This document shows, in pieces, positions 23,753-40,141 of a DNA stretch of 64,000 nucleotides; within the stretch, counting starts at the first letter, position 1, and every line of letters begins with the position of its first letter. The stretch is from Streptomyces sp. SAJ15. GTDB lineage: Bacteria; Actinomycetota; Actinomycetes; Streptomycetales; Streptomycetaceae. Location: contig NZ_NISY01000004.1 of NCBI RefSeq assembly GCF_007595705.1, positions 434,001 through 498,000 on the forward strand. The letters run 5' to 3'. A model generated the notes under the pieces. It did no database searches. It was given only the letters and a program-made list of their open reading frames with translations, and was not told where the DNA came from. The position numbers and the translations under genes were made by a program.

Positions 23753-24844
23753 ATGTCCTCCGCGCTGACCGATCTCTATCGGTACCCGATCGTGCAGGCC
23801 CCCATGGCCGGTGGCGCCTCCTGTCCCCGGCTCGCCGCCGCCGTCTCCGACGCGGGTGGCCTCGGTTTCCTCGCCGCGGGCTACAAGACGCCGGAGGCGA
23901 TGTACGAGGAGATCAAACAGCTCCGCGCCCAGACGGAACGCCCCTTCGGGGTGAACCTGTTCATGCCGCAGCCGGCCGCCGCCGACCCCTCCGCCGTCGA
24001 GGTCTACAGCGAGCAGCTCGCGGCCGAGGCCACCTGGTACGAGACGCCGCTGGGCGACCCCGACTCGGGCAACGACGACGCCTACGAGGTCAAGCTGGCG
24101 ATCCTGCTGGACGACCCCGTGCCGGTGGTCTCGTTCACCTTCGGCTGCCCCTCGCGCGCCGTCTTCGACGCCTTCGCCAAGGCCGGCACGCGCACCGTGG
24201 TCACCGTCACCTCGCCGGAGGAGGCGGAGGCGGCGCAGTGGGCGGGCGCCGACGCGGTGTGCGTCCAGGGCGTGGAGGCGGGCGGCCACCAGGGCACGCA
24301 CCGCGACGACCCGCAGGCCGACGGCGCCGGCGCCGGCACCGGGCTGCTGACGCTGACCGCGCTGGTCCGGGATGCCGTGCGGATCCCGATCATCGCGGCG
24401 GGCGGACTGATGCGCGGCGGGCAGATCGCGGCGGTGCTGGCGGCCGGCGCGAGCGCGGCCCAGCTGGGCACGGCGTTCCTGGTCTGCCCCGAGTCGGCGG
24501 CCAACCCGCTGCACAAGGCGGCCATGACCGACCCGCTGTTCCCGCGCACCGAGCTGACCCGAGCCTTCTCCGGCCGCCCGGCCCGCGGCCTGGTCAACCG
24601 TTTCATCCGCGAACACGGCCCGTACGCGCCCGCCGCCTACCCCCAGGTGCACCACCTCACCTCCGGCCTGCGCAAGGCGGCGGCGAAGATCGGCGACCCG
24701 CAGGGCATGGCGCTGTGGGCGGGCCAGGGCCACCGGCTGGCGCGCGAACTGCCCGCCGGGCGGCTGGTCGAGGTGCTGGTCGGCGAGCTGGAGGCGGCGC
24801 GGGCCGGGCAGTCGGCCGCCCCGCGCGACGGGGTGGCGTCATGA
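23753..24844 (+). CDS. Nitronate monooxygenase-like FMN protein
   Basis: 363-residue TIM-barrel flavoprotein of the nitronate monooxygenase/2-nitropropane dioxygenase group, which oxidises alkyl nitronates with FMN and oxygen. Seen are the N-terminal YPIVQAPMAGGAS, the strand/loop VVSFTFGCPS, the catalytic-region GVEAGGHQGTH with the conserved histidine, and the FMN phosphate-binding IIAAGGLMRGGQIAAVLAAGA. ATG 23753 (MSSALTD) is the expected start. The stop overlaps the ATG of rsmE by 4 bases (ATGA), so the two genes are translationally coupled. Confidence 0.88.
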   Translation: MSSALTDLYRYPIVQAPMAGGASCPRLAAAVSDAGGLGFLAAGYKTPEAMYEEIKQLRAQTERPFGVNLFMPQPAAADPSAVEVYSEQLAAEATWYETPLGDPDSGNDDAYEVKLAILLDDPVPVVSFTFGCPSRAVFDAFAKAGTRTVVTVTSPEEAEAAQWAGADAVCVQGVEAGGHQGTHRDDPQADGAGAGTGLLTLTALVRDAVRIPIIAAGGLMRGGQIAAVLAAGASAAQLGTAFLVCPESAANPLHKAAMTDPLFPRTELTRAFSGRPARGLVNRFIREHGPYAPAAYPQVHHLTSGLRKAAAKIGDPQGMALWAGQGHRLARELPAGRLVEVLVGELEAARAGQSAAPRDGVAS

Positions 24845-25578
24845 CGGCGCCGGTCTTCGTGGTCGACACGGTGCCGGCGGCCGGGGAGTTCGTCCTGGAC
24901 GGACCCGAGGGCCGACACGCGGTGTCGGTGCGCCGGCTGCGCGCCGGTGAGGAGTTGGTCCTCACCGACGGCCGCGGCACCTGGGCGGAGGGCGTCGTGC
25001 TCGCCGCCGAGGGCAAGGACCGGCTGGTGGTCCGGGTGACCGCCGGCGGCGCGGCCGAGCCCGAGCCCGCCCCGCGCATCACCGTCGTCCAGGCGCTCCC
25101 CAAGGGCGACCGCGGCGAGTTGGCCGTGGAGACCATGACGGAGACCGGGGTCGACGCCATCGTGCCGTGGGCCGCCTCCCGCTGCATCACCCAGTGGCGC
25201 GGCGACCGGGGCGCCAAGTCCCTGGCCAAGTGGCGGAGTACCGCACGCGAGGCGGGCAAGCAGTCACGTCGGGTGCGCTTCCCCGAGGTGCACGACGCGA
25301 TGACGACCAAGGAGGTCGCCGCGCTCCTCGGCGACGCGGACCTCGCGGCCGTGCTGCACGAGGAGGGCAGCGAACCGCTCGCCACCGCGGAACTCCCCGC
25401 CTCGGGGAGCATCGTGCTGGTCGTGGGCCCCGAGGGGGGTGTCTCCCCGGAGGAGCTCGCCGCCTTCGCGGAGGCCGGCGCCCGACCGTACCGGCTGGGC
25501 CGCACGGTCCTCCGCACCTCCACGGCGGGCACCGCCGCCACCGCCCTCCTCCTGGGCCGCACCGGCCGCTGGAACTGA
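24841..25578 (+). CDS. rsmE: 16S rRNA (uracil-1498-N3)-methyltransferase
   Basis: 245-residue SPOUT-class RNA methyltransferase modifying U1498 of 16S rRNA. The N-terminal PUA-like domain contains GPEGRHAVSVRRLRAGEELVLTDG. The C-terminal knot region has VVGPEGGVSPEELAAF near residue 196 and RLGRTVLRTSTAGTAA, the SAM-binding knot. ATGA overlap with the preceding gene. The 3' end has been partly duplicated directly downstream; the gene itself looks intact. Confidence 0.93.
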   Translation: MTAPVFVVDTVPAAGEFVLDGPEGRHAVSVRRLRAGEELVLTDGRGTWAEGVVLAAEGKDRLVVRVTAGGAAEPEPAPRITVVQALPKGDRGELAVETMTETGVDAIVPWAASRCITQWRGDRGAKSLAKWRSTAREAGKQSRRVRFPEVHDAMTTKEVAALLGDADLAAVLHEEGSEPLATAELPASGSIVLVVGPEGGVSPEELAAFAEAGARPYRLGRTVLRTSTAGTAATALLLGRTGRWN

Positions 25579-25927
25579 CCCGGTAGCCCCGTTCGGCGGC
25601 GGGTGCTCGCCCCCTACCGCCGCGCCCTGCGTACCGCCGCAACCCTCCGCGGTGGCCCGTCTCGTCCCGCCGCGGTGGCGAACGACCCCGACGGCGGAGT
25701 CCGGCGGTGCCGAACCGGCGCGCGGTGGTGACTGGGTCGCACGGTGCTCCGTACCTCGCACCGGCCGCTGGAACTGACCCGGTAGCCCCGTTCGGCGGCG
25801 GGTGCTCGCCCCCTACCGCCGCGCCCTGCGTACCGCCGCAACCCTCCGCGGTGGCTTGTCTCGTCCCGCCGCGGTGGCGAACGACTCCGACGGCGGAGTC
25901 CGGCGGTGCCGAACCGGCGCGCGGTGG
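25501..25927. repeat. Tandem duplication of the rsmE 3' end and downstream sequence
   Basis: Bases 25558-25728 recur at 25757-25927 with only three visible differences in 171 bases. The match continues to the left: 25501-25520 matches 25738-25757 with two differences, but at a spacing 38 bases longer. The second copy thus carries the end of rsmE, including its stop codon, with an internal 38-base deletion. The 430-base gap between rsmE and the lipoprotein gene holds little else, and no frame in it looks like a real protein. Confidence 0.9.
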
Positions 25928-26008
25928 CGGCCGTTCCTGCGATCGGCCGCGATGATGGGCCGGTCGACGGTCTTCCGGATCGCGCGGCGGGCTGGCAGTC
26001 TGTCCCGT

Positions 26009-26563
26009 ATGGGGGCATTACGACATGTGCGGCGGCTCCTTGCCGCCGGAGTCACGGGAGTTGCGGTCCTGGCCGTGACGGCCTGCGAACCCGAGGAGCG
26101 TCGGGGACTCAGCGCCATCGGCGTGGCCGTCACCACGGACAAGGTCGCCACCCGGGCGCTGGAGCGCGGCGGTATCGGCGTGCGGTGGATGACGTGCACC
26201 GCCGACCTCAAGGGCGACCAGGTGATCGGGGCGTCCTCCTCGCCCGCCAGCGAGGCGTCGGTGGACTGTCGCGGTGAGACCGAGCGGGGCGACGCGGAGA
26301 TCCGGGTCACCGGCGTCGTGACGTATGCGCGCGAAGGGCGGTGCGTGCGCGGCGATCTGACGGCCAAGGTGGCCGGCAAGCAGGTCTTCCGCGCGGACGT
26401 GATCGGCGAGTGCGGTGGGGGCGGCGGGAGCGGGGAGGGTGACGGCGACGGCGGCGAGCGGCCGTCCGACGGCGCCACGCGAACCGCCCACCAACCCACC
26501 GACGGCCCCGCCACCGGCCCGTCCGCGCCGCGGACCTCCGCAGCCCCCACCGTCGGCAAGTAG
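26009..26563 (+). CDS. Putative lipoprotein
   Basis: 184-residue exported protein. A basic N-terminus (RHVRR) precedes a hydrophobic stretch and a lipobox V-T-A-C with the modified cysteine at residue 26. The mature part has a beta-rich domain with three further cysteines (WMTCTADL, SVDCRGE, GRCVRGDL, and one at ECGGG). It ends in a Gly/Ser/Thr/Pro-rich tail of about 45 residues. It was probably anchored on the outer face of the membrane. No family is recognised. The start at 26009 gives a normal signal peptide; no good ribosome site is visible. Confidence 0.75.
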   Translation: MGALRHVRRLLAAGVTGVAVLAVTACEPEERRGLSAIGVAVTTDKVATRALERGGIGVRWMTCTADLKGDQVIGASSSPASEASVDCRGETERGDAEIRVTGVVTYAREGRCVRGDLTAKVAGKQVFRADVIGECGGGGGSGEGDGDGGERPSDGATRTAHQPTDGPATGPSAPRTSAAPTVGK

Positions 26564-26643
26564 TGCGGCACCGGACGCAGACCGCCCGGTAGCATCCCCA
26601 CCGTACGGAACCGTACGAGCCGACGACCCGGAGGAGCCCACCG

Positions 26644-27003
26644 GTGGCGGGAGAACCGCAGGCCGACTGCCTGTTCTGCAAGATCGTGTCGGGAGACGTG
26701 CCCGCGACCATCGTCCGGGAGAGCGAGACCACCGTCGCCTTCCGTGACATCAATCCCCAGGCCCCGACGCACATCCTGGTGATTCCCAAGGCGCACTACC
26801 CGGACGCCGCCTCCCTCGCGGCCGCCGAGCCGACGATCGCCGCGGACATACTGCGTGAGGCCGGCGAGGTCGCCACCGAGGAGAAGATCGAGGGCACCGG
26901 CTTCCGGATCGTGTTCAACACCGGCACGGGCGCGGGCCAGACCGTCTTCCACGCCCACGCGCATGTGCTCGGTGGCCGCGGCCTCCAGTGGCCTCCGGGG
27001 TAA
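26644..27003 (+). CDS. HIT family nucleotide-binding protein
   Basis: 119-residue histidine-triad protein, a nucleotidyl hydrolase/transferase of the HinT type acting on AMP-linked substrates. The family N-terminus DCLFCKIVSG, the middle FRDINPQAPTHILVIPK, and the catalytic HAHAH near residues 102-106 are all present. It starts with GTG after GGAGGAG at seven to eight bases. rnz begins six bases after the stop, so the two form a tight pair. Confidence 0.94.
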   Translation: MAGEPQADCLFCKIVSGDVPATIVRESETTVAFRDINPQAPTHILVIPKAHYPDAASLAAAEPTIAADILREAGEVATEEKIEGTGFRIVFNTGTGAGQTVFHAHAHVLGGRGLQWPPG

Positions 27004-39795: not shown

Positions 39796-40141
39796 ACGCC
39801 TGGCGGCGTGCGCGGTTGAGGGCTTCGCCCTCGTCTTCCTGGGTGTGGCTGGGGCTTTCCCCCTGTCCCCGCTCCCGGGGCGTCGACGGTGCCGTCGGTT
39901 GTGTTGGTGTCGTCGGTGTCGTCGGTGTCGTCGGTGTCGTTGGTTCTGTCGGTTCGGCACCGCCGGTCCGCGTCGTGGTGGTTGCGCGCCGTCGTGGCGG
40001 CATCGGAGTGCCGGTCCGGGGCGGGCTGAAGGTGCTGGTCCGCGGCGGGGCGAAGGTGCTGGTCCGCGGCGGCGTGAGGGCGCTGGGCCGTGGGGGAAAC
40101 AAGCGCGCCGGTCCGTTCGGTGCCCGCCCCTTGGGGTGGGG
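39796..40141. repeat. Low-complexity intergenic region with two tandem repeats
   Basis: Bases about 39897-39950 contain repeats of TCGGTGTCG, and about 40020-40090 contain three near-copies of AAGGTGCTGGTCCGCGGCGG. Read on the minus strand these give Thr-Pro and PPRTSTF repeats without a recognised protein. No gene is called in this 346-base gap. Confidence 0.65.

Follow-up and report, generated by a model that had tools for sequence, protein, structure and literature searches.

The gene rsmE of Streptomyces sp. SAJ15 is followed by a near-identical copy of its own tail. This raises the question of how the end of a gene came to be duplicated and whether the duplication is a peculiarity of this locus or one instance of a more general process. 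The locus lies in a 64,000-nucleotide stretch of contig NZ_NISY01000004.1 (positions 434,001 to 498,000), hereafter the window, to which all coordinates refer unless another contig or locus is named. A repeat search of the window found that a 171-nt block at positions 25558–25728 recurs at 25757–25927, with 98% identity, three differences and a spacing of 199 nt, as had been read from the sequence in the original prediction. TRF reported the same region as an array (25558–25927; period 199; 98% matches), the only one of period ≥45 reported within the window. A repeated flank with a 38-base deletion, which had also been predicted, was recovered when the two units were aligned together with their flanks, and it extends them to 237 and 199 nt. 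Unit 1 occupies positions 25496–25732 of the forward strand by this alignment, its ungapped part being that found by the repeat search. Unit 2 (25733–25931, same strand) directly adjoins it, head-to-tail, and is devoid of the 38 nt equivalent to positions 25520–25557 of unit 1. The alignment comprises eight substitutions over 199 aligned positions and the one 38-nt gap.

Upstream of the copy rsmE is intact, as had been claimed. The open reading frame (24841–25578, forward strand) runs from an ATG at 24841 to a TGA at 25576–25578 and encodes both an RNA methyltransferase and a PUA domain (Pfam Methyltrans_RNA and PUA_4). Its last 83 nt are inside unit 1, confirming that the partial duplication takes in the tail of the gene, and the second copy is indeed non-coding. 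The duplication after rsmE is real. The proposal that it arose by exchange between short repeats is not supported, as the breakpoints at the junction have at most 1 nt in common. The near-identity of the copies, which had been taken to indicate a recent event, stands for the 171-nt block (98%); the word 'recent' is uncertain in view of the eight substitutions in 199 positions and the 38-nt indel, a divergence close to that between the window's genome (G000) and a second strain of the same species (G082), which are 96.6% identical over the rsmE end.

Within the 24 nt at the start of unit 2 there are three differences (25500–25515 versus 25737–25752), each at a third codon position of rsmE, and divergence here exceeds that of the 171-nt block. 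Such a pattern could be expected if unit 2 were derived in part from another rsmE allele through recombination, instead of arising by simple copying of the existing gene end. We consider this improbable: three out of three is a weak signal (1 in 27 by chance), at two of these three positions the base in G082 is that of unit 1, and no donor was found.

Each duplicated unit has at its end a REP-like element of about 50–60 nt. The core of the first copy is at positions 25665–25714, with softer conservation over approximately 25661–25722, and that of the second at 25864–25913, both on the forward strand. A further, single copy is present elsewhere in the window (39953–40000, reverse strand), and the element is also found at the orthologous place in G082. 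That the duplicated block carries a multi-copy element goes beyond the original prediction, as does the presence of local tandem arrays at many other sites of the element. When the own genome was searched with the duplicated block, there were a single full match and 47 short matches, most of the latter to the same ∼50 nt. Copies have nearly fixed ends, CCGCCGCRACGGCG and CCGGCGGTGCCGAAC, flanking a variable middle. A profile iterated from genome copies with their flanks is sharply bounded and reads TYCCGCCGCRACGGCG, approximately 20 variable nucleotides and then CCGGCGGTGCCGAAC, with softer edges. Inspection of the consensus indicates that neither end is an inverted copy of the other. Each end may form a short hairpin with a stem of about 4–6 bp; pairing was seen in 89.7% of cells, and no compensatory pair change was found in the two hairpins. 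Two doublets of elements arranged tail-to-tail have a much stronger fold than their shuffled counterparts (z of −7.3 and −8.0); the z scores of two singlets (0.25 and −0.82) show no such advantage. A search of six array loci and of window positions 25000–26700 against Rfam returned no family at the gathering score; one match to a microRNA family, far below its gathering score, was regarded as due to chance.

The element is dispersed unevenly among genomes. With the consensus as query, the own genome yielded at least 60 matches (E≤0.01), a number of them partial, and four other genomes yielded at least 58, at least 66, at least 58 and 10 (E≤0.001); 40 candidates were scored per genome, so that counts above this number are minimum values. 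An exact two-ended pattern matched 17 of 199 genomes of the genus, and among the matches listed the reversed control had none. A sequence-only profile built from 60 element copies, with 13 candidates scored per genome, had a match at E≤1e-3 in 164 of 392 sampled genomes of the genus, many of these matches being weak and many of them single and near the E limit; about 97 of the 392 genomes pass 1e-6 by hand count, 11 have at least 13 matches, and 228 are without a match at E≤1e-3. Among the matches listed in a scan of named genomes are many Streptomyces, including verticillate species, as well as Streptantibioticus and Actinacidiphila. One pattern match among those listed falls outside the Streptomycetaceae, in Mycobacterium aquaticum (L165), and is perhaps a chance one. 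The plasmid and phage collections gave no match to the element consensus at E≤1e-3.

Neighbouring copies of the element are mostly in direct orientation in the window's species (21 of 25 pairs at loci of G000, 20 of 23 at loci of G082), tail-to-tail pairs being rare (2 of 25 and 1 of 23, respectively). At 115 loci of named species, 34 direct, 21 tail-to-tail and 24 head-to-head neighbour pairs were counted, and in 20 of the 21 tail-to-tail pairs the gap is 9–31 nt. Species rich in doublets include S. abikoensis, S. hiroshimensis and S. roseoverticillatus. The repeat unit of a direct array consists of the element and a locus-specific flank, as it does at rsmE. A CRISPR reading of such arrays was rejected, since inside an array the sequence between elements is itself repeated along with them. 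In a test covering loci of named species and four further loci, direct neighbours were found to be alike in the variable middle (0.816 within 29 pairs versus 0.57 between; 0 of 2000 permutations), and they are therefore products of local duplication. Against expectation, the arms of tail-to-tail doublets are unmatched in the middle (0.585 versus 0.585 in 21 pairs; 984 of 2000 permutations), and head-to-head neighbours (23 pairs) do not have the variable middle in common either.

These arrangements bear on whether the duplication at rsmE has anything to do with the element. It could be an accidental tandem duplication, unrelated to an element that happened to be inside the copied stretch, and the near-absence of common nucleotides at the breakpoints would suit such an accident. 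When TRF was run on 464 kb (400 kb of G000 contig C32 plus the window), arrays of period ≥45 were found at four places, two of which are without the element. However, element sites make up a tiny share of the 464 kb and yet hold the other two arrays, albeit in a small control with about six element sites, two of them weak or partial. Furthermore, in the two strains and in other species, many element sites carry direct arrays in which the flanks are duplicated too. We therefore regard an accident as unlikely. The rsmE feature is probably a local array of a REP-like element that is dispersed through intergenic DNA of Streptomyces, and at the sites of which local duplications occur. The two element-free arrays (C32:309200–309286 and 363072–363345) are both covered by long open frames.

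Comparison with a close relative, which had been proposed as a way to date the event, could be made with G082, a single-contig complete genome. At rsmE this strain has one element copy, the left half of which is decayed, and no duplication. Gain in G000 and loss in G082 both fit this result, the G082 copy being decayed. At other places copy number does vary between the strains. It differs at 10 and is equal at 13 of 23 compared site pairs, these being drawn from 31 alignable ones after removal of six at contig ends, one that repeats a place already counted (L304) and the poorly aligned L070/L275; at L063 and L071 the difference is due to partial copies. At one locus (L061/L273) the arrays of the two strains have opposite orientation as well as different copy number. 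When nine further G000 sites were sought in G082, eight were located, five of them with the element (weakly so at L313) and three (L306, L307 and L311) without a full copy. The latter three are rearranged in G082 and provide no clean empty site or target duplication, and a pair of loci from two close species (L220/L255) contains no clean empty site either.

The original prediction that assemblies may collapse or expand here is supported by G000 itself, in so far as its assembly breaks at places of this kind. Its contig ends C2/C8, C15/C21 and C62/C3 carry element copies, each pair aligning to one stretch of G082, and element copies thus account for some of the breaks. Being a 65-contig draft with other element copies at contig ends, the assembly might be suspected of having produced the rsmE duplication as an artefact. 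This is hardly credible, because the eight differing positions and the 38-nt deletion show that the two units are not a single stretch entered twice by the assembler, and similar arrays are present in the single-contig G082.

With orthologous places counted once, 35 of 67 element sites lie between convergent genes, 30 between genes in tandem and 2 between divergent ones; the corresponding shares of element-free intergenic bases, taken from the same loci and the 400 kb of C32, are 23.6%, 48.6% and 27.8%. Genes were called with a crude GC3 script, and the classes are accordingly approximate. Most copies are located between genes, with 27 of 207 inside genes of this caller. The element thus favours convergent 3′ ends and avoids divergent gene pairs. 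Several sites are common to more than one genome, forming groups of 10, 9, 8, 7, 7 and 5 loci in which some genomes are counted twice. The group of nine (including L336:6026–6075) represents six genomes, and here the element is positioned between rplT (encoding L20) and a gene for a SpoU-family methyltransferase, downstream of infC and rpmI. Element identity within sites (0.776 in 188 pairs, which include genomes fetched twice and near relatives) is only slightly above that between sites (0.719 in 3623 pairs).

Sites common to several genomes, such as the one after rplT, together with the location at 3′ ends and the small variation of the element ends, are what might be expected of a host-functional site, for instance a protein-binding or RNA 3′-end site, which is under selection at gene ends and is not mobile. 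Constancy of the ends at common sites is not to be taken at face value, however, as many of the loci were gathered by exact end patterns and the constancy is in part a product of that collection. The number of copies per genome, from no match to more than 60, the large number of genomes in the profile survey without a match, and the lack of an Rfam family and of covariation also argue against such a site. We give this reading some credence as a possible one, short of finding it probable; host use and a selfish origin of the element are not mutually exclusive.

The Y1 (RAYT) transposase domain PF01797 was detected in none of the five multi-copy genomes; it was found in 2 of 15 other genomes, and of 14 controls 5 were positive, including E. 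coli. No other mobiliser was found. When 20 single-copy loci of low-copy genomes were compared for a mobiliser gene next to the element, the neighbour genes in common proved to reflect orthology of the loci and are uninformative on this point.

The element was compared with known repeat families on the basis of extracts from the papers cited here. REPs are extragenic palindromes of 21–65 nt, often positioned between convergent genes (PMC1525189); those catalogued together with their RAYTs are mostly tagged with GTAG or GTGG (PMC2817692). REPINs are inverted doublets of such sequences, and ordered clusters, built of tandem repeats into which flanking sequence is incorporated, are also on record (PMC3116915). 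Like REPs and BIMEs, the Streptomyces element is short, extragenic, often between convergent genes, possibly hairpin-forming, present in many copies and found in both direct and inverted groups; in general terms, it is a short repeated sequence at gene ends, as REPs are. It differs in consisting of two short putative hairpins and a variable middle instead of one long palindrome, in having no conserved GTAG and in its occurrence in Streptomyces. GTAG is present in 2 and CTAC in none of 60 aligned copies, and the sequence logos show no GTAG column. The closely spaced inverted doublets of other species, and the tandem clusters that include flank, recall REPINs and their RAYTs (PMC3116915), but no Y1 transposase was detected, the doublet arms are unmatched in the middle, and direct arrays of singlets predominate in the window's species. 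REPs lacking a dedicated transposase have already been described in the form of the CGTC-tagged ones, palindromic sequences which, like the present element, are short, differ in abundance from species to species and frequently lie downstream of genes or as dimers (PMC3733652). In those, however, the tag is terminal and unpaired and the stems are of 8–9 bp (PMC3733652), whereas in the element GACG is internal (51 of 60 copies) and is not an end tag, and the stems are shorter. Since GTAG is so rare, GACG internal, the stems shorter and no RAYT seen, the element is not filed as a GTAG REP/REPIN or as a CGTC REP, and is only REP-like. The arrays also resemble minisatellite or VNTR loci, being head-to-tail and varying in copy number between strains, but units at different loci have only the element in common, the remainder being locus-specific. 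For GTAG repeats, the extract of PMC3733652 lists Proteobacteria, Cyanobacteria, Chloroflexi and members of the PVC group, with no mention of Streptomyces, and within the extracts of the REP literature covered (including PMC1590033, PMC3733652, PMC1525189, PMC2817692 and PMC3116915) no such Streptomyces family is named. The literature searched yielded no previous description of the element, and a search with the literal letters of its ends retrieved nothing related.

Taken as a local array of a dispersed REP-like element, the rsmE feature may have originated as follows. The element probably reached 3′ intergenic spaces through an ancient dispersal, in the form of a short non-autonomous repeat, and in other species it often lies in closely spaced inverted pairs. 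At a given site, head-to-tail duplication can copy the element along with whatever adjoins it; the arrays that result, with locus-specific units of some 85–240 nt, would grow, shrink and decay. At rsmE, a 237-nt unit that included the last 83 nt of the gene would have formed, and unit 2 would then have lost 38 nt and gained substitutions. We infer that the family spread by mobility, and the element itself may have a causal part in the duplications, through hairpins, fork stalling, nicking or slippage. The combined proposal, that this is a mobile REP/REPIN-like family, widespread in Streptomyces, which owes its spread to some enzyme that is not a RAYT and which provokes local tandem duplication of its flanks, gene tails included, is doubtful and is offered tentatively.

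Where REP-type repeats have been studied, they influence transcript ends, DNA topology and genome plasticity. The high copy number of the element in some Streptomyces, without the usual transposase, raises the question of what spreads it, and its arrays offer variable-number loci for strain typing.
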